Part shown: in pieces, positions 16,109 to 39,970 of the stretch | How the letters are laid out: each line of letters begins with the position of its first letter | Numbering within the stretch: position 1 is the stretch's first letter | Virus record (IMG/VR): IMGVR_UViG_3300049491_000696 | Location: 1-51,392 of that record | Direction: 5' to 3' (one strand) | DNA: 51,392 nt | DNA from: a virus | Notes under the pieces: model-generated | Told to the model about the DNA's origin: nothing | The model's database searches: none | Seen by the model: the letters and a program-made list of their open reading frames with translations, nothing else | Program-made: the position numbers and the translations under genes

Positions 16109-18667
16109 GTGGCGTTCCGCCTACCCAATGCCGGATCGGTGCTGGTCGCGGACCAGGCCGCCCCCGACGCGGGCGACTTCGACGTCCTCGCCTCCGCGCC
16201 CGCCCTGTGCGGGGTCCAGTTGGGCGGCGCCACCGACTGCCAGGTCACCGTCTCCACGGGGCTGACCCTGAACGTCGCGGCTGGGACGGTCCGCGTCCAA
16301 GGGTGGCGCACCGCCGTGACGGCGGGGACCGTCACGTTGGGGACCGCGCACGCCACCCTCGCCCGGTACGACCTCATCGTCGTCGCCAAGGGCACGGGCA
16401 CCAAGTCGGTGATCGCGGGGACCGCGTCGTCGGCGCCGGAGTTCCCCGCCTACAGCCCCACCACACAACTGCTGCTCGCCGCGGTCCGGGTCGCCGCCGC
16501 CACCGCCACGATCGTGTCAGGCAACGTCGTCGACAAGCGGGTCATGGTCGCCGCACCGCCAGCGGAGTTGGCGACGTGGTACGGCGCCGTCGACGACATC
16601 ATCTACACCACCGGGTCCTCCACCGCGTCCTCGGCGACCGTCACCTCCACGACCGGGATCTTCACGTCCACGGCCGTCGACGCGGGGAAAGTCGTCGCCA
16701 TCGCCAACGGGGTTTCGTCGGGTATCCACTTCTTGGGGAAGATCTCCACCGTCACCAGCTCGACTCAGGCGGTGCTCACCGCTGTCGTCCCCGCGACCAC
16801 CAGCGGGGTCCAGTTCGTGTTCGGCACCGACAGTTGGCAGGCGATCAAGGACGCGCAGACCGTGATCACCGGGATCGGTGGCGGGACCCTCATCTATCCG
16901 GACACCAAGACAGGCGCGTACCTCATCTCGCAGGTCATCCGGTGCCAGCCAGGCGTCTACCACCGGGCAGGGTCCCGCAGGGTCCGGATCACCAACAGGT
17001 GGTCCGGCGGGTCCAACGTGCACCCGATCAACCAGTCCGGGTTCGCGCCCGGCTTCGTCCACGGCGACGCGATCTGGACCAGCGGGAACGGGTCCGGGAA
17101 CAACAATCCCGGCAGCCCTGCGATGCCGCACTACGCGTTGACCGCGGTAGCGGTCGGCGCGACCACCGTCACCGGGTCCAGCGCCGGGCAGGTGTCCTCC
17201 AATGTGCAGGTCGGGGACTACGTCGCGGTCCGGTCACAGGCCGCCGCCACGTTGCCGTCGGGGGCCGCGTACTCGGAGTTCCCGTTCCAGATGTACTACG
17301 CCCGAGTCCTGGCCAAGAGCACGGACACGGTCACCCTCTCCGAAGTGTCGCCGTATGCGATCGCGGCGGGCGGATACATCGTCCGGATCACCGGGTCAGC
17401 GGTCGCGAACGGCACGTTCTTCACCGGGAACAGCGACTTCCCCGCCCACGGAGTCTCCGGGCAGGAAAACATGTGGATGACCCGGGACTGCGGGGTCGAC
17501 GGGTTCGTCGTCGACGCGAAGACCCCGATCTGGGGTGGCGGGGTCCTCGGATTCACAGTCCGCGACGTCCGGCCCGTCGACGGCGCGGCGTGGGACTCAT
17601 TCATCACAGCCAACGCGCTCTGCAACACCGTGATCCAGGACTGCTACGGCGTCGACTTCACGTTCACCTGGTGTGAACTGAAGTTGGGTAGCGGGAACGT
17701 GAAGGTCGAGAACTGCCACGGCCGGTGGACGTCCGGCTCCGCGGTGTACACGCCGGTGGGGATCGGTGAGTCCGCCCACGGCGTCACCATCGAGCACAAC
17801 ACGGTCATCCTCCCCTCGGCGTTCAACGACGCGAACAAGGTGATGTTCGACATTCAATGCTCCCTGGACGTGAAGGTGCGGAAGAACCTGATCCGCTGCC
17901 ACGCCACGGACATCGACTGTGTCGTGGCGGTCGCGGACACCAACGACAACGCATTGAACATCTCCGATGGGCTGGATTTCTCCGACAACCTGATCGCCGT
18001 GACCGGCGCGTCGACGACCGGCGCGGCCCGCGTGTTCAAGGTCGCTCTCGGCGCGGGCGCGTTCCTCCCGGTCCGCCTGCGGATCGTCGGCAACAAGATC
18101 ACCGGGTCGCTGCGGGCCAACGTCAACCAATGGTTGAACATCCAGAAGGGCAACGCCGACATCCGCGACAACGTCCCACCGGCGGGGACTACGGCGGTCA
18201 TCGGGACCGCGGTCACCGGGTACGTGCCGGCGGGGCGGACGGAGATCGCGTCCCTCTCCGCCGACGTCACGACCACCTCGACCAGCATCACGGACGTGTC
18301 GGGCGAGTTGATGCGGACCGTGGAAGTCGGTGTCTACGACGTCACCGTCGATGGCCTGTACCGGTCCTCGCTGACCAGCGCTGGGCCCAGGTTCGGGGTC
18401 GGTGGGTCGTGCACGGTCGGGACCATCGACGGTGCGGTGACGATGTGGTCGGCGCTCGCGACCGCACCGACCGTCACGTTGGCGACCGCAGCGAACACCG
18501 GGTATGGGGTGAACCCGGACGCGACGGGCGTGGACCGGCCTGTACAGATCAAGGTGCGCGTGAACGTGACCGCCGCTGGGACGCTCGGGCCGCGCTGGCT
18601 GGAGTCCGCCGCCTCGACAGGCACGTTCCGTCGCGGCGCCCGGTTGCAGTTGACCCGCGTCGGATAG
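16109..18667 (+). CDS. Beta-helix spike (receptor-binding) protein
   Basis: The protein has 852 residues. The first 150 (NAGSVLVADQAAPDAGDFDVLAS ... NVVDKRVMV) resemble the base domain of actinophage fibre proteins. From about residue 255 (SWQAIKDAQTVITGIGGGTLIYPDTKTGAYLIS) to about 680 runs a pectate-lyase-type right-handed beta-helix with short strand repeats such as VKVENCHGRW and VTIEHNTVILP. The end forms a sandwich cap. It probably binds or cleaves host surface glycan. Unlike most phages, the gene lies among head-tail connector genes rather than after the tail genes. Confidence 0.82.
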   Translation: MAFRLPNAGSVLVADQAAPDAGDFDVLASAPALCGVQLGGATDCQVTVSTGLTLNVAAGTVRVQGWRTAVTAGTVTLGTAHATLARYDLIVVAKGTGTKSVIAGTASSAPEFPAYSPTTQLLLAAVRVAAATATIVSGNVVDKRVMVAAPPAELATWYGAVDDIIYTTGSSTASSATVTSTTGIFTSTAVDAGKVVAIANGVSSGIHFLGKISTVTSSTQAVLTAVVPATTSGVQFVFGTDSWQAIKDAQTVITGIGGGTLIYPDTKTGAYLISQVIRCQPGVYHRAGSRRVRITNRWSGGSNVHPINQSGFAPGFVHGDAIWTSGNGSGNNNPGSPAMPHYALTAVAVGATTVTGSSAGQVSSNVQVGDYVAVRSQAAATLPSGAAYSEFPFQMYYARVLAKSTDTVTLSEVSPYAIAAGGYIVRITGSAVANGTFFTGNSDFPAHGVSGQENMWMTRDCGVDGFVVDAKTPIWGGGVLGFTVRDVRPVDGAAWDSFITANALCNTVIQDCYGVDFTFTWCELKLGSGNVKVENCHGRWTSGSAVYTPVGIGESAHGVTIEHNTVILPSAFNDANKVMFDIQCSLDVKVRKNLIRCHATDIDCVVAVADTNDNALNISDGLDFSDNLIAVTGASTTGAARVFKVALGAGAFLPVRLRIVGNKITGSLRANVNQWLNIQKGNADIRDNVPPAGTTAVIGTAVTGYVPAGRTEIASLSADVTTTSTSITDVSGELMRTVEVGVYDVTVDGLYRSSLTSAGPRFGVGGSCTVGTIDGAVTMWSALATAPTVTLATAANTGYGVNPDATGVDRPVQIKVRVNVTAAGTLGPRWLESAASTGTFRRGARLQLTRVG

Positions 18668-18699
18668 CCCACCACACCACCCCGCCAGGGTCGCCCCGG

Positions 18700-18745
18700 T
18701 AGCCTGTCCGGTGGGGTTGGGGAACCGTCTGCCACCGTGTGAGAG
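18700..18745 (+). promoter_or_regulatory. G-rich-leader promoter before a small virion-region gene
   Basis: TAGCCT (18700-18705), 7 nt, GGGGTTGGG (18713-18721), and a GGTT-gggg-AACC mini-hairpin, followed by GAGAGGG and the ATG at 18758. The rest of the 90-bp gap after the spike gene holds nothing else I recognise. Confidence 0.5.
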
Positions 18746-18757
18746 GGCACCCCCGAC

Positions 18758-19012
18758 ATGAGCGCCACCGAAGGGACCACCCAGGCGAAGCCGGAACCGG
18801 CCGCGTCCGCTGAAGGTGTCCCCATCCTCGCCCCCGACCCGCAGCCCGCGCCCTCCGGGGAACCGGACTATGCGGCCGAGTGGGGCCAGTACGTCGCCGT
18901 CACCGACTGCACCTACGCAGGGTTCCTCGCGGTCCCAGCCGGGGGTGCGGTCCCCGCGTCGCACCCATCCCGGCCGTACTGGGTCGAGCAGGGCATGGCC
19001 CGGCCCGTCTGA
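18758..19012 (+). CDS. Small hypothetical protein (84 aa)
   Basis: The N-terminal 40 residues are Pro/Ala/Glu-rich and disordered (AKPEPAASAEGVPILAPDPQPAPSG); the rest (YAAEWGQYVAVTDCTYAGFLAVPAGGAVPASHP) is compact and ends WVEQGMARPV. This pattern resembles small proteins encoded beside connector genes in actinophages. ATG 18758 follows GAGAGGG. Its stop overlaps the next ATG. Confidence 0.75.
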   Translation: MSATEGTTQAKPEPAASAEGVPILAPDPQPAPSGEPDYAAEWGQYVAVTDCTYAGFLAVPAGGAVPASHPSRPYWVEQGMARPV

Positions 19013-19413
19013 TGGGCACCCACGGCGGGATCGTCGTCGACGACGCGTTCGTCGAAGGTCTGTTCACCAGCCTGTCCTCCCCCGTCGGGCGGGAGCTGGT
19101 GGAGGTTACACAGTTGGTGACGCAGACCGCGAAGCTGTTCGCCCCGGTGGGTGCGCCGTCGAAGACCCCGTTGGGCCATCCCGCGGGATGGTTGCGGTCG
19201 AGGATCGGGTGGACGACGGATCCGATCGGGCCGCTCGCCACCCGCGTCTCCAGTCCCGCCCGAACGTCGGGCGCGAACCCGTTTCCCGGCGAGTCGTACG
19301 GCACGCACATCGAGTTGCCGCGCACTCGTCCGCGGAAGCCGCCACCGTTCGCGCGGCACACCGAACCGTACCTGTGGCCAGCATGCAAGGCCGTGTTCGA
19401 GGAAAGGTACTGA
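19012..19413 (+). CDS. Tail completion/connector protein (HK97 gp10-like)
   Basis: The 133-residue protein begins with a helix (LVEVTQLVTQTAKLFAPVGAPSKTPLGHPAGWLRSRIGW), continues with basic loop YGTHIELPRTRPRKPPPFARHTEPYLWPACKAVFEERY. This order (amphipathic helix, Gly/Pro loop, C-terminal basic tail) matches HK97 gp10-type neck or tail completion proteins. ATG 19012 overlaps the previous stop; a longer upstream reading frame is a shadow. Position before the tail terminator supports the call. Confidence 0.7.
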   Translation: MGTHGGIVVDDAFVEGLFTSLSSPVGRELVEVTQLVTQTAKLFAPVGAPSKTPLGHPAGWLRSRIGWTTDPIGPLATRVSSPARTSGANPFPGESYGTHIELPRTRPRKPPPFARHTEPYLWPACKAVFEERY

Positions 19414-19416
19414 CCT

Positions 19417-20721
19417 GTGCCTGGGTACACGCCCGTCCACTCGCCGTGGGTTGACTCCCCCGGAACGTCCACACCGATCATCGCCACGAAACTCGGCCTC
19501 ATCGAAGCCGGGGTCCGGTCGGCGTGGCGGGCCGCCGGCGACGCGATCCCCGTCCGCGACTATGTCACCGGGTCCGGGGATGAGACGACCGCGTTGCAGG
19601 CCGCGGTGACCGCAGCGTTGGCTGCGGACGTCCCCCTGATCGGCGCGCAAGGCCTGACCGTGTCGATCTCCTCGCCGATCGACATGCGCGGCGACGACCT
19701 CATCTACATCGGGAACCGGATGCAGATCCGGCAGACCGGCACCAACATCCCCGGCGTCCGCGTCGGTGGCACGAACCAGGAGATCGTCGGTCTGTCCGTC
19801 GACTACGCCACCCAACCCACGTCGGGGCATACGAACGCGAACGCCATCGAGTTGTATGCCGGGTTCCAGTCGTATTACCGGGATTTCCGGGCCGAGCGGT
19901 GTGGGCGCGGCATGTTCTTGGGCCAATCGTCGTGGGACGGGTCCGGGACGAACACCCTGTTCTCGTGCATCCTCGACAACTGGTTCGTGAGCGGGTGGGC
20001 CATCAGCGCGGTCGACTTGAAGACGTACCCGGGCGGCGCGGCCAGCACGGGGAACGTGATGCGGAACTGGTACCTCCACAACAACTACTCCGGGTCACCC
20101 GTCGCGACCAGCCAACCGCCGGTCGTGTTGCAGGACCACGACGAATCCCACATGTCACAGATCAACCTCGAATGGTGCGACCTGAACGGCAACGACAGCT
20201 GGTTCCTCCAACGGTGCCGGAACATCGTCCTCGACAGCCTCCACTTCGAAGGGTTGACCCTGTCGGGGACTGCGGCGTTGATGCGGGCGTACGAGAACTG
20301 CCGCCTCTCGATCCGCGGGATCAGCTTCACTAACAGCACCATCGCGAACAACGCCGGGCAGAAGTCGATGATCCGGTGCCAGCACATCACCGGATCCCCG
20401 ATGTCCATCAACGTGGTGGGGATGCGGGACCGGGACACCACCAACACCGGCGCCCAACCGTTCGCGCTCATCGAGGTCGAATCCGCGGGCGCCGGTGGCG
20501 CCAGGGTGGAGATCGTCGACGCCGACCTCGACCTCGTCGTCGGTGGCGCGATCGTCGGTGACGGCGCCGCAACCCAGGTCCGCCGCCTGAACGAGGACTT
20601 CCGCGGCGGTCTGAAGGGCACCAGGCCGGCGATCACCGGGTCGCGGGCGTCGAACGCTGCGCTCGCGTCGCTGTTGACGCAGCTCGCCGCGATGGGGCTC
20701 GTCACGGACTCGACGACCTGA
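19417..20721 (+). CDS. Second beta-helix spike protein
   Basis: This 434-residue protein has the pectate-lyase-like start GSGDETTALQAAVTAALAADVPLIGAQG and then helix-like repeats such as NVMRNWYLHNN, INLEWCDLNGN and IVLDSLHFEGL. The lack of a recognisable base domain suggests it binds another virion protein. It is a likely receptor-binding or glycan-processing spike. GTG 19417 lies 3 nt behind the gp10-like gene. A pair of spikes in the connector region is unusual. Confidence 0.8.
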   Translation: MPGYTPVHSPWVDSPGTSTPIIATKLGLIEAGVRSAWRAAGDAIPVRDYVTGSGDETTALQAAVTAALAADVPLIGAQGLTVSISSPIDMRGDDLIYIGNRMQIRQTGTNIPGVRVGGTNQEIVGLSVDYATQPTSGHTNANAIELYAGFQSYYRDFRAERCGRGMFLGQSSWDGSGTNTLFSCILDNWFVSGWAISAVDLKTYPGGAASTGNVMRNWYLHNNYSGSPVATSQPPVVLQDHDESHMSQINLEWCDLNGNDSWFLQRCRNIVLDSLHFEGLTLSGTAALMRAYENCRLSIRGISFTNSTIANNAGQKSMIRCQHITGSPMSINVVGMRDRDTTNTGAQPFALIEVESAGAGGARVEIVDADLDLVVGGAIVGDGAATQVRRLNEDFRGGLKGTRPAITGSRASNAALASLLTQLAAMGLVTDSTT

Positions 20722-21182
20722 TGGCCCGCCCGGTCTACACGATCGACGTCTCCGGGTTCACCCTGCAATGGGCGAAATCCTGGCCGGGCCTGGTGGGCCG
20801 AGACTTGCCCCTGATCGGGGTGCACCTGTCGCAGGTCCGGTCGCCGCAGCGGGGCGCCGTCTGTCAGCTCGCCCTGTCGGGTACCCCGACCGTCGACCTC
20901 GAAGGGTACGGGCACACCGCATCCTTCTCCTTCACGGTCACCGCAGTCGGCAGCGAGGGCGGCGCGCACCGGCAGGCGGAACGCGGGTGCCGCGCTGTCG
21001 CGGTCGCGATGCGCGCCATGACCGGGACCCGCCAGCAGGTGACCATCAACGCGGGCACCCCCGACGAAGCCACGGCCGTCCTGACGCATGTCCACACGGT
21101 CGGCGGGCCCTCGCTGGCGGGAGACAAGGGTGGGGAGATCGCGTACCGGGCGGACGGCACGTTCGTGTGGCAGACCCCCTAA
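20721..21182 (+). CDS. Tail terminator-like protein
   Basis: This 153-residue protein occupies the usual place of the tail terminator, after the gp10-like gene and before the major tail gene. Its pattern (a beta-rich core around PTVDLEGYGHTASFSFTVTAVGSEGGAHRQAERGCRAVAVAMRAM) fits the small terminator fold that caps the tail tube. ATG 20721 overlaps the previous stop. The role is mainly inferred from position and size. Its 3' end overlaps the minus-strand HTH gene by 4 bp. Confidence 0.62.
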   Translation: MARPVYTIDVSGFTLQWAKSWPGLVGRDLPLIGVHLSQVRSPQRGAVCQLALSGTPTVDLEGYGHTASFSFTVTAVGSEGGAHRQAERGCRAVAVAMRAMTGTRQQVTINAGTPDEATAVLTHVHTVGGPSLAGDKGGEIAYRADGTFVWQTP

Positions 21183-21370
21183 CCGGCTTCGCGGCGCCAC
21201 CGGTACAGGGTGTCGCGGGACACGTCCGCGGCGATGGCGACCTGCCGCAGCGGGACACCCACGGCGAGCGCGTCGACGCTGGAGCCTCTGAGAGCGGTGT
21301 ACGCCGCCGCCGCTGCCTCGCGGGAGGCGACGACGGCGGCGAGCCGTTCGCCGTGCTCAGTAGAGGACAC
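21179..21370 (-). CDS. Small HTH DNA-binding protein
   Basis: A 63-residue protein. Residues 33-60 (ALAVGVPLRQVAIAADVSRDTLYRWRRE) form a clear helix-turn-helix with a basic recognition helix. The N-terminus (LAAVVASREAAAAAYTALRGS) is a helix that could dimerise or bind the upstream partner. The start is GTG 21370; it overlaps the upstream 99-residue gene by 14 bp, so both come from one mRNA. The palindrome before the operon is the obvious binding site, making this a probable autorepressor. Confidence 0.75.
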   Translation of the reverse strand: MSSTEHGERLAAVVASREAAAAAYTALRGSSVDALAVGVPLRQVAIAADVSRDTLYRWRREAG

Positions 21371-21656
21371 GACTCAACGCTCCCCGCAGCTCAAGGCGCA
21401 GGTCCCCGGCGGTCGCCACGTGCTCCGGGACGTGGACGTCGATGCAGTCCTGGCCGCAGCCCGCGTAGTACGCGGGCCCGGCGGCCGAGAGTCCCGGCAG
21501 TGCGTCGATGGTCGCGGTGACCCGGTCGGAGTAGTCCGCGAGGGACTCCTCTTCCGTGATGGGGAACACGTCGAAGACGCGTTCGGTGTAGGTGCTCGGA
21601 GCCGTCCGGAGCATGGTCACTGCCTGGTAGAGGGTCTCCGGGGTGGTGGCCGACAT
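21357..21656 (-). CDS. First gene of minus-strand cassette, 99-aa protein
   Basis: The protein begins SATTPETLYQAVTMLRTAPSTYTERVFDVFPITEEESLADYSDRVTATIDALPG and ends with an LRLELRGALSRVLY helix; GCGQDC could bind metal or form a disulphide. I do not recognise the family. ATG 21656 follows AAGGAG. It is the first gene after a strong promoter and is coupled to an HTH gene. The layout fits a toxin-antitoxin pair, an autoregulated moron, or an accessory immunity unit; sequence alone does not decide. Confidence 0.68.
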   Translation of the reverse strand: MSATTPETLYQAVTMLRTAPSTYTERVFDVFPITEEESLADYSDRVTATIDALPGLSAAGPAYYAGCGQDCIDVHVPEHVATAGDLRLELRGALSRVLY

Positions 21657-21706
21657 GGTGGGCTCCTTCTGGTGGTGGGGGCCGCTGTCCGGCTCCGGTA
21701 CGACAC

Positions 21707-21746
21707 ACGATATGTCCGATCATCGGACATGTCAACTGATCGGACA
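21707..21746 (-). promoter_or_regulatory. Sigma70-type promoter with palindromic operator
   Basis: On the minus strand, TTGACA (21735-21730), a 17-nt spacer and TATCGT (21712-21707) form the best promoter in the window. The spacer and flanks are the 19-bp perfect palindrome ATGTCCGATCATCGGACAT (21712-21730). A second half-site ATCGGACA lies at 21739-21746, about 18 bp from the first. Binding here would block RNA polymerase, so the downstream HTH protein is likely to repress its own operon. Confidence 0.85.
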
Positions 21747-21808
21747 GTGCGGATCGGTGACCCCGATACACAGACACGCGGACGCCGCCCCCGGGCCTCC
21801 CCTGCCGC

Positions 21809-21913
21809 TATCCTGCTGCACAGGGTTGGGTCCGTAGCGGACCAGCGGTCGACCATCCTCCAGTAGCTGGAGGGTTGGGGCGGCCCGCGTGAGGCCTATA
21901 GGGGGCCCAACCC
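21809..21913 (+). promoter_or_regulatory. G-rich-leader promoter and three-hairpin leader of the major tail gene
   Basis: TATCCT (21809-21814), 7 nt, AGGGTTGGG (21822-21830). Three hairpins follow: GGTCC/GGACC (21829-21843), CCTCCAG/CTGGAGG with a 3-nt loop (21857-21873), and GGGTTGGG/CCCAACCC (21872-21879 with 21906-21913). The last stem ends one base before the ATG and its loop holds TAGGGGG, the likely ribosome binding site. Confidence 0.62.
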
Positions 21914-21914
21914 G

Positions 21915-22739
21915 ATGCCATCCATCACCGTCCCGAGGCTGTACCAGGTCGGACCTGGCTACCTGTTCCGCGCCCCCGTCGGGTCCGCGCTCCCCGGCCT
22001 GTCCTACACGGTCACGAACAAGGCGCTCACCACCAACGTCGCGACGATCACCACGTCGGTGACGCACGCCCTGATCGTCGGGGACGTCGTCACCGTCGCC
22101 CTGTCCCCCGCCGACTCCGTGTTCGACGGGTCGTACACGATCACCGCGATCACCGGCACCACCTTCTCCTACGCCCGGGTCAACGCGAACGTCACCTCCG
22201 GGGCGTCCGGTGGGTCCGCGGCCCGCCCCGGAGGTGTCGTCGCCGCGGGCATCTTCACCGACGCGTGGCCCGCGATCTGGCTACCCGTGGGGATCACCCG
22301 CGAAGGAACCACCTTCAACTACCAGGTCGCGACCGCGAACATTGAGGCAGCCGAGTACTTCGACCCGTTGGCGATCAAGACGACCGGGCGGACCATCGGC
22401 ATCCAGTTCCAGCTCATGCACCTCACCAACCGGTCGTTCCTGCTGGGCATGAACGGCGGCACCAGCGCGACGATCGGTGGCGCCGCGGCGACCCTCCTGA
22501 CGAAGGTGACACCACCGGCGGTCGGCGCGGAGCAGCGGGTCATGCTCGGATGGGAGTCCGAGGACGGCACCGAACGGAAGATCTACCGGCAGTGCATCCA
22601 GTCCGGCAGCGGGGATGAGCAGGCCGCGAAAGCCCCCAACGCTCGCGCCCTGTCCCTGCAGTTCGGGGTGGAGCAGCCCACCACCGGTGATCCCCTCGAA
22701 ATCTACATCGCGGGTGACACGCGGATCGCTGCGGCATGA
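21915..22739 (+). CDS. Major tail (tube) protein
   Basis: The 274-residue protein sits directly before the frameshifted chaperone genes, as expected for the tail tube protein. Strands in the N- and C-terminal parts (VGPGYLFRAPVGS, TTGRTIGIQFQLMHLTNRSFLLGMNGG, LSLQFGVEQPTTGDPLEIYIAGD) resemble siphophage tube proteins. An insert near residues 30-100 (TNKALTTNVATITTSVTHALIVGDVVTVAL) is an Ig-like module. ATG 21915 is fixed by the leader; the stop overlaps the next start. Confidence 0.82.
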   Translation: MPSITVPRLYQVGPGYLFRAPVGSALPGLSYTVTNKALTTNVATITTSVTHALIVGDVVTVALSPADSVFDGSYTITAITGTTFSYARVNANVTSGASGGSAARPGGVVAAGIFTDAWPAIWLPVGITREGTTFNYQVATANIEAAEYFDPLAIKTTGRTIGIQFQLMHLTNRSFLLGMNGGTSATIGGAAATLLTKVTPPAVGAEQRVMLGWESEDGTERKIYRQCIQSGSGDEQAAKAPNARALSLQFGVEQPTTGDPLEIYIAGDTRIAAA

Positions 22740-23266
22740 CCGCCGTCATCGACATCACCCCCGACGACGCGGAGTTGGTGGACGACGAACGGTTCCCGTT
22801 CACGTTCTGCGGGGTGGACTTCGCCCTGTCCCCGTGGTGCGGGGTCGGCGCCCTGCTGCGGTTCACGGCGGCCCTGTCGGACCGGGACACCCGCACCGTC
22901 GCCGCGACTGTCGACTATGAGCGGGCCACCACCGACGAAGCCCGCGAGACGGCGTCCCGGGAGTTCGGGCGCGCGGACCAGGACATGCAGGTCGCGGTCG
23001 TCCGGTTCCTCCGCGACGCCGTCGGACAGGACCACGTCGACCGGCTGCTGACGGCAGCGGACATGCACGGCGTCGATGACATCCTCGCCGTCTGCGGCCG
23101 TATCCAGGCAGTGCTCGGGGCGCGCCCTACCCGACGGTCCACCGACTCACCAGGTGGGCCGTCGAGGAATGGGCGGCCCTCAACGGACGGTGGATCTGGG
23201 GTCACGGCCCGGACCCCGGCGCAGGCGCAGCGGTCTGCGATCAGGGCCGCTTCCGAGGCGGTCTGA
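22736..23266 (+). CDS. Tail assembly chaperone, short form (G-like)
   Basis: This 176-residue product is the unshifted form of the tail assembly chaperone. It contains RFPFTFCGVDFALSPWCGVGALLRFTAALSDRD followed by Ala-rich helices and a VVRFLRDAVGQDHVDRLLTAADMHG segment, as in gpG-like proteins that coat the tape measure. The last 40 residues after the shift site are Ser/Pro/Arg-rich and look like non-selected sequence. ATG 22736 overlaps the tail gene stop. Confidence 0.8.
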   Translation: MTAVIDITPDDAELVDDERFPFTFCGVDFALSPWCGVGALLRFTAALSDRDTRTVAATVDYERATTDEARETASREFGRADQDMQVAVVRFLRDAVGQDHVDRLLTAADMHGVDDILAVCGRIQAVLGARPTRRSTDSPGGPSRNGRPSTDGGSGVTARTPAQAQRSAIRAASEAV

Positions 23267-23439
23267 CCCGCCTGTCGGTCCCGGACTTCTTGGACGTCGC
23301 GTGGGCTGCGCTCCTGGACCGGGTCGCCCCCGAGTCGGTGGACGCCGTCGCAGAGTGGTTGACGTCCCCACTCGACGCGGTCGACGGGCAGGGGTCGGCG
23401 GATCGGGTCGCGGCGTGGCGCGCAGAACAAGGATGGTGA
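22736..23439 (+). CDS. Tail assembly chaperone, -1 frameshift form (GT-like)
   Basis: From about 23080 the -1 frame is open to TGA 23437-23439 and reads as protein (RLTRWAVEEWAALNGRWIWG, then LTRLSVPDFLDVAWAALLDRV), but it has no ATG, GTG or TTG until well inside. A ribosomal -1 shift between 23080 and about 23135 would give about 234 residues. TGA at 23077-23079 bounds it upstream. The exact slip is not clear: CCCT at 23125-23128 is one candidate. The TMP gene follows by 6 nt. Confidence 0.72.
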
Positions 23440-23445
23440 GTAGGG

Positions 23446-26400
23446 GTGGCTGAGGGCGACAAGCTCGCCGGTGAGGCGTACCTGATCATCCGCGCCAAGG
23501 ACGGCGGGATCCACGACGACATCAAACGGTCCGGGGACCCCGCCGCCGAACGCGCCGGGAAGTCCGCGGGTGAGAAGTGGTCCGACGGGTTCACCCGCAC
23601 CGCTGACGGGAAGCTCAAGGATCATCGGGGTCGGCTCGTCAGGGACTCCGAACGCGCCGGGGACGAAGCCGGGCGGAAGGGTGGGGACCGGTACGCGGAC
23701 CGGTTCCGTGACGCCTCCAGGCGGGCGTCGAAAGGCCTTGAATCCGACTTGGTGAAGGGCATCGACAAGGGGTTGAAGAGGTCCCTGATCGGTGCGGTCG
23801 CGGTCGGTGGGTTGGCGTCGACGTTCGCGGCGACGGGGACGGTGATCGCGGGTACCGCTGGTGCGGTGGTGTCCCTGTCCGGCGCGTTGGGTGCCCTGCC
23901 GGCGGCGGGCGCGGCGGCTGTGACGGTGACGCAGGCGTTGAAGGTCGGCCTGTTGGGGGTCGGGGACGCGATCAAGAACTCGGGGGATCCGAAAGCTTAC
24001 GCGGAGGCCGTCAAGGGTCTGTCGGGGGAGGCCCGGGAGTTCACCGACACCATCCGGGTCCTACGCCCCGAGTTCGGCAAGTTCCAGGACTCCGTGCAGG
24101 ACAATCTGTTCGATGGGCTCGCGGAGTCCGCTGCCAGGCTGACGGGCCGGTACCTGCCGATCCTGGAACGCCAGTTCGGGGCGATCGCCGACGAGGCGAA
24201 CCGGGGCGCGAAGGACGTCGCCGCGTTCCTGTCGGCCCCGACCCAGGCGAGGTCGGCGGAACGGTTCTTCGCGTCCACGGCGGACGCCGCGAAGGGGTTG
24301 GCGTCGGCGTTGAAGCCTGCCGCGGGCGCGTTCCTGGACCTCGCGGAGGTCGGGGCCCGGTTCCTGCCCGCTGGTGCGGAACGTCTCGCGGGGGCGGCGG
24401 AGCGGTTCGCGGAGACCGTGGCTCGGGCGAAAGCCAGTGGGGCTCTGGAGGGGTGGATCCGTGACGGGTTGGATGCGGTCGGCGACCTGGGGTCCGCCCT
24501 GCAAGGGGTGGGCCGGATCTTCACGGGCATCCTGTCGGCGGGCGGCGGCGCGAACACCAGTGGTCTGGAGTCGTTCGCGGCCCTGTTGAACCGGGCGGCG
24601 GACGCGATCGAGCGGCCCGCGTTCCAGTCCGGCCTGTCGAGCGTGTTCAACGCGATCGGTGCCGCGTCGGATGCGATCGGTGCGTCGCTGCCTCAGGTCG
24701 CGGACGGTCTCGCCGCCCTGGCGCCCGGGATCGCGTCGTTGACCCGGGGGGCTGGCGTCGCGCTCGGGGACCTGCTGGAACAGGCCGGTAGGGCCGCGGA
24801 GAACCTCGCCCCGACGTTGAACGCCGTCGCCGCCGGGCTGGAACACGTGGCGCCGTTCGCTGGGGAAGCGGTCGCAGCGTTCCTCCTCTTCAAGGGCGCC
24901 CTACTCGGGGTGAAAGCCGCATCCACCGTCGTCAACGTCCTCGACAAGGTCAACGGCGGCCTCATCCAGGTCACCGGATCCGCGGGGAAAGCGGGAACCG
25001 CGATGCGCGGCCTCGCCGTCGGCGGCGCCGTCGTCGGTGGACTCCTCGCGATCGGCGCCGCGATCAACGCGATCGCCCCGAACGCTGAGGACACCGCCGT
25101 GAAACTCGGCGCGATGTCCCTGGCCCTGGACCGGTTCGGGAACGGCCGCTCCACCGGCGCGTTGAACACCCTCGGCAAGGACTTCTCCGAGCTGGGCGCG
25201 CAACTCGACGAACTCGCGTCCCCTGGGGCGGCCCGCCGTTTCGAGGACTTCATGGGTGTCGTCTTCTCGTGGGCCGGCGGGTCCACGAAGGGTGGGGAAC
25301 CACGGCGGGCACTGCTCGCGGACCTGTCGTCGTTGGATCAGTCGTTGACGCAGCTGGTGCAGGGTGGGCAGACGGATCAGGCAGCCGCCCTCTTCCAGAA
25401 ACTCAACAGCGAAGCCGTCGCCGGTGGTGCCGGGGTGCTCCAGTTGGCGCAACACCTGCCCACCTACTCCGACGCTGTTGCTGCTGCGGCAGCCGAATCG
25501 GGGGGCGCCGTCACCAGCGTGGAGGACCTGGCGCGGGGGATCCGCGGGCAAGGCGACTCCGCCGTCACCACCGCCTCCTCCATGACCGCGTTGGCGACCG
25601 CCACCAGCGACTACGCGGGCACCACCGTCGAAGGGAACGCGACGGCCCGCACCTACGAGGAAGCGTTGGACCGGGTCAGGGAAGCCGCCCGCCGCAACGG
25701 GAAGACCCTCGACATCACCACGGAGAAGGGGCGGGAGAACTCCGCCGCCCTCGACGCGATCGCCACGTCCGGGATCGCGTTGGCGAGATTCCAGGCAGGG
25801 GAAGGCGCCGGAGCTCAAACAAAGTTCCGGGAAGGCCTCGTCAAGGTGAGGGGCGACCTCATCGCTGCGGGGATCAGGTTGGGGTTGACGAAGAAGGAGG
25901 CCCGGGAGTACGCCAACCAGCTCGTCAAGATCCCGAAGAAGGCCAGCACGTCGGTCACCACACCCGGGTTGAAAGCGGCGGACCGGGCGGCGCGAAGCTA
26001 CCGGGACGCCATCGACCGGATCCCCAAGACCGTCACCGTCGTGTTCCGCGGGATCAGCGGCGGCACGTTCGATCCTCGGGTCCGGTACTCCGACGGGAAA
26101 CCTATCCTCCGCGCATCTGGCGGGGTCATCCCGACCGGCATCGGGACACCCGGAGTCGACTCGGTGCCGGCGCTCCTCACCCCTGGCGAGTTCGTGGTCC
26201 GCGCCCCGGTCGCACAGCAGACGGGGATGCGGCAGGTCCTCGACGCCATCAACTCCGGACGCGCCGCCCGGTTCGCGTCCGGGGGCCCCGTCGGCGGCGG
26301 GCCTCCCGGCACGGCCGCCGCCGGGTGGGGGCGGATGCACCCCGACGACCTCCGCCTCCTGGGCCAGGTCATCGGGCAGGCAGTGGCCCGCGCGACACGA

Positions 26401-33878: not shown

Positions 33879-33921
33879 GGTGGGCCCCCGGGGGATCGAA
33901 CCCCGAACCCGCGGATTAAAA
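33879..33921 (-). other. attP: attP core: 3' half of a tRNA-Lys gene
   Basis: Read on the minus strand, this segment runs from the anticodon loop CTTTTAA (Lys, UUU) through a T-arm (CGGGG TTCGATC CCCCG) to the acceptor GGGGCCC-A-CCA. The 5' half of a tRNA does not continue upstream: the anticodon stem does not pair. This is the usual signature of a phage attP whose crossover restores the host tRNA-Lys gene. The integrase gene begins about 220 bp away. Confidence 0.85.
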
Positions 33922-33952
33922 GCTCGCCGAACCGTGGCCTCCGTAGCCGGGT

Positions 33953-34141: not shown

Positions 34142-35434
34142 TCACTCCGCGGCATCCCGCCGCTTCCTGGGCTCCCGCAACTGGGCGTGATGGGTTTGCA
34201 GCAGGTCCCGCGCCGTGTCCGCGCCCTCCGCCGACAGATGCCCATACGTGCGGAGGAAGAACGCCTGCGACGCATGCCCCATCAGATCCGAGATCTGAGC
34301 CATCGGGACCCCCGAGTCGATCATCCCGACCGCGGCGGCGTGCCGGGCGTTGTGCAGACGCGTCGCCGCCAACCCAGCCCGGGCAAGGATGTCCTGCCAT
34401 GCCTGCCAGTCCGAGCGGGGTTCGATGGGCCGCCCGTCGGGGGTGCGGAACACCAGGTCCGTGTCCCGGCCGTGCACGGTCCACTGCTGGTAGGCCTCGC
34501 CGTGCATGAGTCGTTCCCTGGCCTGCTGGCGGCGGAAGTCCTTCAACAGGGCGACGATGTCCCCCGTCAACGGGATCGTGCGGCGGGCGCGGTCCGTTTT
34601 CACCCGCCGCAACGTCAACTCCCCACCCGTCCCGTCCGTGCAGAGGGACGCCCACCTCCGCCCACACGGCCACCCACCGTCAACCGACGGGCCGCACCGG
34701 TGCACACCCCGAGACCGCCGCAACTGCTGCACCACCGTCAACGTCTGCCGGGCAAGGTCGACGTGCTCCCACTCCACCCCCAACGCCTCACCCTGCCGCA
34801 ACCCATGCACCAGGGCGATCAGCCACCGCGCTTCCAACCGGTCCCGCCGGACCTCCCGATAGATGGCTTCAACATCCGCCCGGTCCGGGGGGCGGACCTC
34901 CCGATGCGGCACCCGCGGCGCATCCACATGCGCGATCGGGTTGAACCCGAGAACCTGAGCCTTCACCGCCGCGTCCAACGCCGAATCCAAGACGACGTGC
35001 ACGTGATGCCGCCGCGACGCGCCCCGACCCGCCGCCTTCATCGCGTCCTGCACCTTCCGGGCATGCCGGTCCGTGACCCTGTCCAGACGGACACCGCCGA
35101 CCTGGGGGGCCAGCCACGTCCGGATCAACGACTCATAGTCCCGGCGCGTGGACTCCGCGAGGTCGTCGTCACCGCGCAGGTCGCCCAACCAGTGCGTCAA
35201 CCACTCCCCGACCGTCCACTGCTCCGGGCGGGTCCGCAACCGGCCGGTGTCCCGGTCGTTCAACACGGCCCGCAACCGTCGCCGGCACTCCGGTTCCGTG
35301 GCAGCCATCCGGGTGACCCTGCGGGGGTGGCCCTCGTCGTTCCAGCCGACGACGACAGCGCCCCGCCACCGGCCCGCGTGCCTCCCGGACTTGACGAGGT
35401 AGACGGACCCCTCAGACTTCCCTCTCCCGCCCAT
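34142..35434 (-). CDS. int: Tyrosine integrase
   Basis: The 430-residue recombinase inserts the phage into the host tRNA-Lys gene. The arm-binding N-terminus is followed by a core-binding SAM-like domain (TVGEWLTHWLGDL). Catalytic residues appear as R213 (GLRQGEALG), K279 (RVKTDRARR), H361-R364 (HNAR), H387 (LMGHAS) and Y397 (RTYGH). An insert near 245-266 has three Cys. ATG 35434 lies three bases after the repressor stop, so repressor and integrase are probably one transcript. Confidence 0.96.
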   Translation of the reverse strand: MGGRGKSEGSVYLVKSGRHAGRWRGAVVVGWNDEGHPRRVTRMAATEPECRRRLRAVLNDRDTGRLRTRPEQWTVGEWLTHWLGDLRGDDDLAESTRRDYESLIRTWLAPQVGGVRLDRVTDRHARKVQDAMKAAGRGASRRHHVHVVLDSALDAAVKAQVLGFNPIAHVDAPRVPHREVRPPDRADVEAIYREVRRDRLEARWLIALVHGLRQGEALGVEWEHVDLARQTLTVVQQLRRSRGVHRCGPSVDGGWPCGRRWASLCTDGTGGELTLRRVKTDRARRTIPLTGDIVALLKDFRRQQARERLMHGEAYQQWTVHGRDTDLVFRTPDGRPIEPRSDWQAWQDILARAGLAATRLHNARHAAAVGMIDSGVPMAQISDLMGHASQAFFLRTYGHLSAEGADTARDLLQTHHAQLREPRKRRDAAE

Positions 35435-35437
35435 GGG

Positions 35438-35827
35438 TCAGGTGGTGAGGCCGCGGGCGTCCCCGAAGCGGAGGACGACGTCCCGGACGGCGAGCTGATC
35501 CCCGACGGGGAGGCGGCCCGTCCACTCCGGGAGGATCGACGCCAACGCGGACCCCCCGGTCGGCGGGTTCAAACCCAACGACACAGCGTTCGCGATGTAC
35601 ACGGTGGCGTGCTGCCACCCGAAGAGGTGGGAGATCGCCCGCATCGTGTTCGGCTGCACCCACCCCGTCCGCGGGGTGGTCAGGAGTTTCCACGCGGCTT
35701 GCCGGTTCACGACGGGTTCCCCATCCTCGCCCAGGAGGTTCGACGCGAACCACTGCGCGCCGCGGTCCCCTACCCCAGAGGCGAGCAGCGACGTGAGGCC
35801 GACGCTCACAGGTTCCGGTTCGGCCAT
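35438..35827 (-). CDS. Probable immunity repressor
   Basis: The 129-residue protein has a HTH-like centre (NRQAAWKLLTTPRTGWVQPNTMRAISHLFGWQHATVYIANAVSLG), in which QAAWKLLTT and NTMRAISHLFG would be the helices, and a C-terminal part that may dimerise. Location between integrase and a Cro-like gene, divergently from early genes, is the classical lysogeny switch. ATG 35827 follows GGGAGACC. The upstream -10 TAAAGT overlaps the proposed operator, suggesting autoregulation. Confidence 0.7.
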   Translation of the reverse strand: MAEPEPVSVGLTSLLASGVGDRGAQWFASNLLGEDGEPVVNRQAAWKLLTTPRTGWVQPNTMRAISHLFGWQHATVYIANAVSLGLNPPTGGSALASILPEWTGRLPVGDQLAVRDVVLRFGDARGLTT

Positions 35828-36046
35828 CGGGTCTCCCGGTTCGGTGGTCTGCCTGAACAGGACACGCGTTGCCCGCCAGGGTACGCCGGACTTTACCGTT
35901 CCCCCCAACGTTCTTCAGTAAATCTGTGCAGGTCACGGGCCTGTTAGGTGCGTTCCGCTTGCCTCCCGGTCCCCTCAGGGTTTACCGTTGTTGTCTAGCA
36001 GGATACGTGCCCGGCCCGGTCACGCATAGACGACGACAGGAGGACC
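35828..36046. promoter_or_regulatory. Lysis-lysogeny switch region with operator candidates
   Basis: This 219-bp gap separates the leftward repressor/integrase unit from rightward early genes. The leftward promoter is CTGAAG-17-TAAAGT (35918-35913 and 35895-35890). TTTACCGTT occurs at 35892-35900 and 35981-35989, 89 bp apart; the first copy overlaps the leftward -10. The rightward promoter is less clear, near the GTCTAGCAGGATAC segment (about 35993-36006). AGGAGG precedes GTG 36047. Confidence 0.68.
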
Positions 36047-36325
36047 GTGAAGTACTCGATGCGCGTGAAAGACCCGGACCGGTTCCGCGCCAGAGCCGTG
36101 CTCCGCGGACTCACACAAGCGGAACTCGCCAGGTCAGCGGGCATCGGGGACAGCATGCTCACCCAGATGCTGGCCGGTCGGAAGGGATGCACCCCCGACA
36201 CCGCGGGACGTGTCGCGGACGTCCTAGGCGCCCCGGTGGGCGACCTGTTCATCGCCCACGCGAAGGGGCCGTGGCCCATCCGGAAACCGTCGCCGTCCAC
36301 CCCGACTGAACAGGCCACGACGTGA
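36047..36325 (+). CDS. Cro-like HTH (XRE) protein
   Basis: The 92-residue protein carries a standard XRE fold: FRARAVLRGLTQAELARSAGIGDSMLTQMLAGRKGCTPDTAGRVADVLGAPVGDLF. It is the first rightward gene after the switch and likely competes with the repressor for the operators. GTG 36047 lies 3 nt behind AGGAGG; ATG 36059 is another option. The GTG of the next gene overlaps its stop. Confidence 0.85.
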   Translation: MKYSMRVKDPDRFRARAVLRGLTQAELARSAGIGDSMLTQMLAGRKGCTPDTAGRVADVLGAPVGDLFIAHAKGPWPIRKPSPSTPTEQATT

Positions 36326-36609
36326 CCCGCCCCGCCCTCCGAGCCGTCGACACCCCCGCTCCGGCGCGTGTCGCCACCCTCGACGCCGACGACGCCGACA
36401 TGTTCCCCCTCCGCACCGCCGCACAGGTCGCCCGGATCTGGGGGATGGGCCCCGACTACGTCCACCGACTCGCCGACCAAGGACGCATCCCCTACGTCCT
36501 CATCCCCTCCGGACGCGGCGACGACGCCACCGAATCCGAAGGGAGACGGCGCCGGTTCCGCAACGACCACCTGAGGACCGCAGTCCAGTCCTGGACACAG
36601 TCCACATGA
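36322..36609 (+). CDS. Excisionase-like HTH protein
   Basis: The 95-residue protein has MFPLRTAAQVARIWGMGPDYVHRLADQGRIPYVLIPSG, a MerR/Xis-type winged helix (helix-turn-helix then wing RRRRFRNDHLRTAV). It follows the Cro-like gene. It is the best candidate for a recombination directionality factor here, but could be a regulator. GTG 36322 overlaps the previous stop. Confidence 0.72.
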   Translation: MTRPALRAVDTPAPARVATLDADDADMFPLRTAAQVARIWGMGPDYVHRLADQGRIPYVLIPSGRGDDATESEGRRRRFRNDHLRTAVQSWTQST

Positions 36610-38958: not shown

Positions 38959-39287
38959 CCGAACCGCTGACGTCCCCGCCGGGCGTGGACCTGTTCGAGG
39001 CGGCGGCCCGGCTCCGCCTGGCTGCCGTGTTCGGTGGGGTCGTGAAAGTCCACGCCGCCGACCTCACTGCCGTCCTGGACGCGCCGGGCGGGCACGCGTT
39101 GACCGATGGGTCGGTGCGGCGTGCGGCGCTCGCGTTCCGGGCAGCGTCCCGGACCCGGTCACCGGCTCTCGCGCCACTTGACGCGGCGTTCGGTGACCCC
39201 GCCCCGGTCGGGGAACCGACGCCGTTGGAGCTCCGGTGGATCCGCGCAGCCATCGCCGCCGCACTCAGACTGGAGGAAACCCGATGA
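38955..39287 (+). CDS. Hypothetical helical protein (110 aa)
   Basis: The ATG at 38955 is coupled to the previous gene. The protein contains GVDLFEAAARLRLAAVFGGVVKVHAADLTAVLDAPGGHAL and a C-terminal basic/Ala helix. I do not recognise it. Its stop overlaps the next ATG. A helical DNA-binding or adaptor role is possible. Confidence 0.7.
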   Translation: MTEPLTSPPGVDLFEAAARLRLAAVFGGVVKVHAADLTAVLDAPGGHALTDGSVRRAALAFRAASRTRSPALAPLDAAFGDPAPVGEPTPLELRWIRAAIAAALRLEETR

Positions 39288-39970
39288 CCGGGCGGCGGAT
39301 CTACCCGCAACTGTACGACCGGGACTGGCTGCACCAACGGCACATCACCGACGGCGCAACCATCGCGGCCATCGCCCGCGACGTCGGGTGCACCGACGTA
39401 CCGGTGCTGCTCGCGTTGGCTAGGGCTGGGATACCCGTCCACATCCGAGGTGGCGCCCGGACGTCGTATCCCCGGATGATCCAGTTGACCCGCGGCGAAC
39501 TCGTGGAGGAGTACCAGCAGGCGGGCAGCGTCCCAGCGTTGGCGGCCCGGCTGGGTGTCAGCGCGGGCACCGTCCGCAACGAGTTCGCCCACCACAGCAT
39601 CGTGCCCGGGGACTACACGCCGGAACTGTTCCCCGAGCTGAAGGACCCCGACTGGCTGGCCCGCGCCGCGGAGACGATGGCCGTCACCGAGATCGCCGCC
39701 AAGGTCGGCTGCTCGTACTCGACAGCAAGGCTCGCGTTGAAAGCCGCGGGAGTCACCCCGCAGGTTGTTGCCCCGGGGCCACCCCGCACTGAGGCGGGGG
39801 TGAAGACCGTCGCGGTCCGGCTCTACCGGGATGGCCTCACCACCGTGGAGGTAGGGGCAGCGGTCGCCAGGCACCCGGCGACCGTCTACAGGTGGCTGCA
39901 AGCGGCGGGCGTCGACACAAAGGCGCGGCGCAGGACGCCACGGCGCGGCCGGGCTGGAGTGGACCGGTGA
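39284..39970 (+). CDS. Multi-HTH DNA-binding protein
   Basis: The 228-residue protein contains at least three or four helix-turn-helix-like units: ATIAAIARDVGCTDVPVLLALARAG, SVPALAARLGVSAGTVRNEFAHH, AVTEIAAKVGCSYSTARLALKAAG and LTTVEVGAAVARHPATVYRWLQAAG. The repeat of HTH modules suggests it reads a long DNA site. ATG 39284 follows TGGAGGA. Coupled to a RuvC-like gene, it may be a regulator or junction factor. Confidence 0.8.
   Translation: MTGRRIYPQLYDRDWLHQRHITDGATIAAIARDVGCTDVPVLLALARAGIPVHIRGGARTSYPRMIQLTRGELVEEYQQAGSVPALAARLGVSAGTVRNEFAHHSIVPGDYTPELFPELKDPDWLARAAETMAVTEIAAKVGCSYSTARLALKAAGVTPQVVAPGPPRTEAGVKTVAVRLYRDGLTTVEVGAAVARHPATVYRWLQAAGVDTKARRRTPRRGRAGVDR

Follow-up and report, generated by a model that had tools for sequence, protein, structure and literature searches.

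Within the window, which is the whole 51,392-bp IMG/VR virus record (GC 0.708), the minus strand from 21179 to 21746 reads directly as a compact cassette of two open reading frames, a promoter, and an operator. The first gene encodes P99 (99 aa, 21357 to 21656), an acidic protein (pI 4.4) whose ATG follows the Shine-Dalgarno sequence AAGGAG (AGAAGGAG) by 6 to 7 nt. The second encodes P63 (21179 to 21370), a 63-aa helix-turn-helix (HTH) protein that starts at a GTG with GGGGAG upstream. Both frames have phage-like codon usage, and each outscores every overlapping frame in coding score; they overlap by 14 bp, exactly as given in the first-pass annotation. The antisense position that it described between two tail genes also holds: on the plus strand, the cassette is preceded by a tail terminator gene (20721 to 21182; a weak match to phrog_123, 1.5e-3) and followed by a major tail protein gene (21915 to 22739; a weak match to phrog_584, with 17 homologues in the same operon position).

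The stop codon of P63 overlaps that of the convergent tail terminator gene. A simple scan, which covers T-tailed hairpins only, recognised no intrinsic terminator at the 3' end of the cassette, so minus-strand transcripts could enter the tail genes as antisense RNA. An RNA family search gave nothing credible in the cassette region, and a structured leader ahead of the major tail gene was not significant (z of -1.3). Between the head-tail and tail genes, in an unusual place, lies a gene for a 434-aa protein (19417 to 20721) with a weak match to the baseplate family phrog_31122 (8e-5).

Promoter and palindromic operator

The predicted promoter (21707 to 21735, minus strand) is of the sigma70/sigmaA type, with TTGACA at 21735 to 21730 and TATCGT at 21712 to 21707 on either side of a 17-bp spacer (21729 to 21713). 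It alone passes a sigma70 consensus scan of the 51-kb window, in agreement with its earlier description as the strongest promoter present. The spacer, TGTCCGATGATCGGACA, is exactly the palindrome TGTCCGATNATCGGACA, and extension by the edges of both hexamers gives the 19-bp putative operator ATGTCCGATCATCGGACAT (21712 to 21730). The spacer had been described as a 19-bp perfect palindrome with a further half-site. The arms are indeed perfect and the half-site is exact, but the part that fills the spacer is 17 bp long and the central base is unpaired, the only such position. This third half-site, TGTCCGATCA (21737 to 21746, minus strand), lies just upstream of the -35 hexamer and 17 bp from the equivalent arm. 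The region can therefore be read as two 17-bp units in direct succession, TGTCCGATCAGTTGACA and then TGTCCGATGATCGGACA, with the right arm of TGTCCGATCAGTTGACA degenerate (TTGACA).

Taken singly, neither element is above chance, as shuffled sequences contain 0.3 to 0.7 such promoters per stretch and 0.8 odd palindromes with 9-bp arms are expected per window. For the coincidence of the two, defined as a promoter with at least 10 of 12 matches and a palindrome with an arm of at least 8 within its spacer, the expectation is about 4e-5 per window of this composition. ATGTCCGATCATCGGACAT occurs once in the window even when 3 mismatches are allowed (0.01 expected), and the promoter-operator arrangement was not repeated in any viral contig searched.

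Insertion into the tail operon of a probably temperate phage

No near relatives were found in a phage collection queried with positions 18000 to 26000, and searches with neighbouring proteins found no near sibling phages. A tblastn search with the major tail protein found 17 homologues in viral contigs of GC 0.69 to 0.71. In all 17, the cassette is missing from a compact plus-strand tail operon that extends up to the major tail gene, and there is neither the palindrome near that gene nor a significant match to P99 or P63. A single relative has a minus-strand ORF at this place (46 aa, weak). As the cassette is absent from these relatives, we regard it as an insertion; the relatives are distant (35 to 49% identity in the major tail protein) and do not fix its exact ends. 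The major tail protein also has an inserted domain (approximately residues 27 to 105), which is missing in homologues of 183 to 188 aa and recurs as tandem copies within an actinobacterial frame of 2578 aa.

The source is probably a temperate phage of high-GC actinobacteria. It encodes a tyrosine integrase (34142 to 35434, minus strand; phrog_1, 8e-51) and a repressor-like protein (35438 to 35827, minus strand; phrog_12831, 2e-6), and profile searches identify Cro-like (36047 to 36325) and excisionase-like (36322 to 36609) genes. An attP-like sequence (33880 to 33935), the 3' half of a tRNA-Lys(TTT) gene including CCA, lies some 200 bp from the stop codon of the integrase gene and has 1 to 3 mismatches to tRNA-Lys genes of Actinomycetia (best, 1 in 45). 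Exact TTTACCGTT repeats occur at 35892, 35981, and 41886 (0.02 expected in the window); the first two lie in the lysogeny region, and we consider the repeats candidate operator sites of the immunity repressor. The lysogeny region has these repeats and no palindrome of TGTCCGAT half-sites, which indicates that the regulator of the cassette should be local. Judged from its sequence, the cassette lies outside the lysogeny module and is independent of the main immunity system, and control by the main repressor is unlikely. A 228-aa protein encoded at 39284 to 39970 combines repeated HTH motifs with similarity to HNH endonucleases (phrog_8446, 1e-19) and a weak match to mad1.

The earlier view of a moron-like antisense unit with its own promoter and operator is thus partly sustained, and the phage that carries it has both an integrase and a repressor module. 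Like the morons of temperate phages, the cassette is inserted, lies on the opposite strand, appears to have its own promoter, and is absent from the same position in related genomes (here, 17 distant relatives). It differs from them in bringing its own regulator and operator and in the lack of a recognised terminator; an own terminator is usual in morons, not universal. On this reading of the sequence, the cassette is a genuine and well-formed insertion with its own promoter and operator, of a kind already known, and P99 is an orphan.

Candidate readers of the operator

P63 consists of an N-terminal helix followed by a C-terminal HTH. Its matches to Pfam HTH_23 (1.3e-4) and HTH_7 (1.9e-3) both fall under the Pfam cut-off (for HTH_7, 18.7 bits compared to a gathering cut-off of 23.8), and its weak full-length profile match is to phrog_686 (3.8e-4), a group of small HTH proteins with the same build among which P63 has no close pairwise relative. 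The best match in the PDB is the HTH of Gin invertase (E of about 1). The P63 helix SRDTLYRW resembles ARSTVYKV of gamma-delta resolvase (sequence from PDB 1gdt), although similarity to resolvase HTHs is weak in a pairwise test (BLASTP E of 1.2) and P63 has D in place of S173, a residue of the gamma-delta recognition helix. The profile matches bear out the first-pass assignment of an HTH protein and place the predicted domain in the homeodomain/resolvase/transposase type, not the cI/Cro type. A single-sequence structure model, made without an alignment and of poor quality, has two helices. No relatives of P63 were found in phages, and its one distant match is a low-GC protein of a terminase region. 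A search with phrog_686 gave matches in 311 of 395 genomes and is too common to inform. A few of the matches (three cases) sit in small overlapping gene pairs, with unrelated partners, and no P99-like neighbour was found beside the actinobacterial phrog_686 matches examined. PADLOC returned only a weak HTH match to P63 (mad1, E of 0.016).

The consensus half-site of resolvases is TGTCYGATA. Tn3 resolvase has been crystallised on a site III oligonucleotide with TGTCTGATA at its end (PMC9943657), and this differs from TGTCCGAT by one mismatch over 8 bases. P63 would thus share with the Tn3 and gamma-delta serine resolvases a type of HTH and a similar half-site (TGTCYGAT), but it lacks a catalytic domain, and the two arms of the operator abut, spanning 17 bp together, whereas res subsites are longer. 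Autoregulation by P63 is plausible because the operator and an HTH gene occur in one operon and because an HTH of the resolvase type binds a very similar half-site. The weakness of the resolvase similarity and the change of S173 to D count against P63 as an autorepressor.

So does a further identity of the palindrome, which matches the PobR operator motif of Acinetobacter baylyi, TTGTCCGATSATCGGACAR (PMC8222616), at 17 of 17 positions. Its arms also fit the IclR Group 1 consensus TGTYCRYW3RYGRACA, and PobR, PcaU, and HmgR sites carry an extra half-site, as the cassette does (PMC8222616). This identity, which the first-pass annotation had missed, opens an alternative in which the operator is read by a host IclR-family regulator (PobR/HmgR-like), the moron is tied to aromatic catabolism of the host, and P63 has another target. 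The switching of the corynephage tox gene by the host regulator DtxR offers a parallel.

The palindrome is present in 82 bacterial genome stretches, and in about 20 bacterial loci it adjoins genes for IclR-family proteins or homogentisate dioxygenase. In genome contigs, an IclR-family gene lies within 400 bp of it at 12 loci, compared to a background density, measured in three actinobacterial genomes, of approximately 1.6 such genes per Mb. At 8 loci of diverse actinobacteria, TGTCCGATNATCGGACA is upstream of a gene that we take, from its sequence, to encode homogentisate 1,2-dioxygenase. These last loci often have a AGCGGACA-like box 21 bp from TGTCCGATNATCGGACA, a candidate IclR-type operator. 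Many genomic matches were set aside as terminator-like hairpins (Catellatospora and Clostridia).

Despite these associations, we consider it unlikely that a host IclR protein reads the operator. Tandem IclR boxes are 18 to 22 bp apart, mainly 19 to 21 (PMC8222616), and wherever a clear extra half-site exists at the IclR/hmgA loci (12 cases) it is 20 to 21 bp from the matching arm, compared to 17 bp in the window. Twelve candidate host genomes, those with the best attB match (tRNA-Lys), lack the palindrome within 1 mismatch, and no IclR gene was found in the phage. Together, the 17-bp spacing, the 12 genomes without the site, and the lack of a phage IclR gene favour P63 over a host IclR protein as the probable reader.

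Single matches to the palindrome in viral contigs (9 contigs) are close to a rough chance estimate. Separately, three unrelated viral contigs (L006, L009, and L005, from records G004, G007, and G003) contain 9, 5, and 4 copies of TGTCCGATAATCGGACA at up to 2 mismatches, several of them immediately before start codons. These three records yielded no IclR protein and no shared regulator, and the existence of viruses that carry 4 to 9 palindrome copies without a recognisable common regulator is a further point against P63 as the reader.

Possible function and significance

We consider it somewhat better than an even bet (roughly 0.55) that the cassette is a moron autorepressed by P63 and expressed in the lysogen, with P99 as its effector. 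Under this proposal, the gene pair, inserted after the tail terminator gene and ahead of the major tail gene and running antisense to the late operon, would be expressed in the lysogen from its own host-type promoter. P63 would bind TGTCCGAT half-sites as a dimer; one dimer would occupy the 17-bp spacer of the promoter, and another the adjoining upstream unit. The bound dimers would exclude RNA polymerase, so that the cassette would repress itself and P99 would be held at a low or adjustable level. In lytic growth, late antisense transcription may silence P99. Autoregulation and lysogen expression are probable components of this scheme; binding by P63 and an effector role for P99 are predicted from the arrangement. 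Lysogen expression would have precedents in Sbash genes 30/31, a pair expressed lysogenically from its own promoter, and in CarolAnn genes 43/44, which are likewise prophage expressed (PMC6426596, PMC6426606). These too are two-gene units. They are located close to the immunity region, their products include a membrane protein and a DUF4747 protein, and they have no homology to the cassette.

The nature of the effector is less constrained. No homologues of P99 were found in phages, plasmids, viral contigs, genome contigs, 395 actinobacterial genomes, or the PDB, it has no family match in Pfam, PHROGs, NCBIfam, or PADLOC, and its single-sequence structure prediction, made without an alignment, is poor (pLDDT of 50). 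It is possible that P99 is a toxin, an exclusion factor, or a second-immunity factor, and by its architecture alone the cassette could be a toxin-antitoxin, exclusion, or defence pair; the first three roles had been suggested before, and none gained a match in any collection searched. An immunity repressor system shares its operator with early lytic promoters, but the palindrome occurs only once in the window. The two more specific proposals that follow are versions of the moron explanation, and their likelihoods overlap with its own.

A type II toxin-antitoxin system, with P99 as the toxin and P63 as the antitoxin and autorepressor, would account for two small overlapping genes, an operator of the autorepressor type, and a second gene of the DNA-binding type. 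We nonetheless find it doubtful, given that Pfam, NCBIfam, PHROGs, and PADLOC yield no toxin or antitoxin family match, P99 is without homologues, and P63 has no recognised antitoxin domain besides the HTH. Superinfection exclusion or defence, the activity of the prophage-expressed two-gene cassettes of Sbash and CarolAnn (PMC6426596, PMC6426606), seems improbable here, as the cassette encodes neither a membrane protein nor DUF4747, and P99 has no PADLOC match, P63 only the one to mad1. Least credible is that the cassette has no function and is an insertion that has decayed or is neutral. Its single occurrence and lack of homologues would fit such an origin, but the codon bias is intact, Shine-Dalgarno sites are present, and a perfect operator lies exactly within the promoter spacer.

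The identity with the IclR operator is either a warning that unrelated proteins can read identical operators or a sign of host control; if a host IclR protein does read it, a prophage gene would be wired to the aromatic-compound metabolism of its host. If instead the moron is autorepressed by P63, as we favour, it would be a self-regulated cassette of the lysogen that is very compact and whose operator is precisely defined. It would then offer a route to a repressor module of the small-HTH type for hosts of high GC, and P99 would be an orphan effector worth a phenotype screen.
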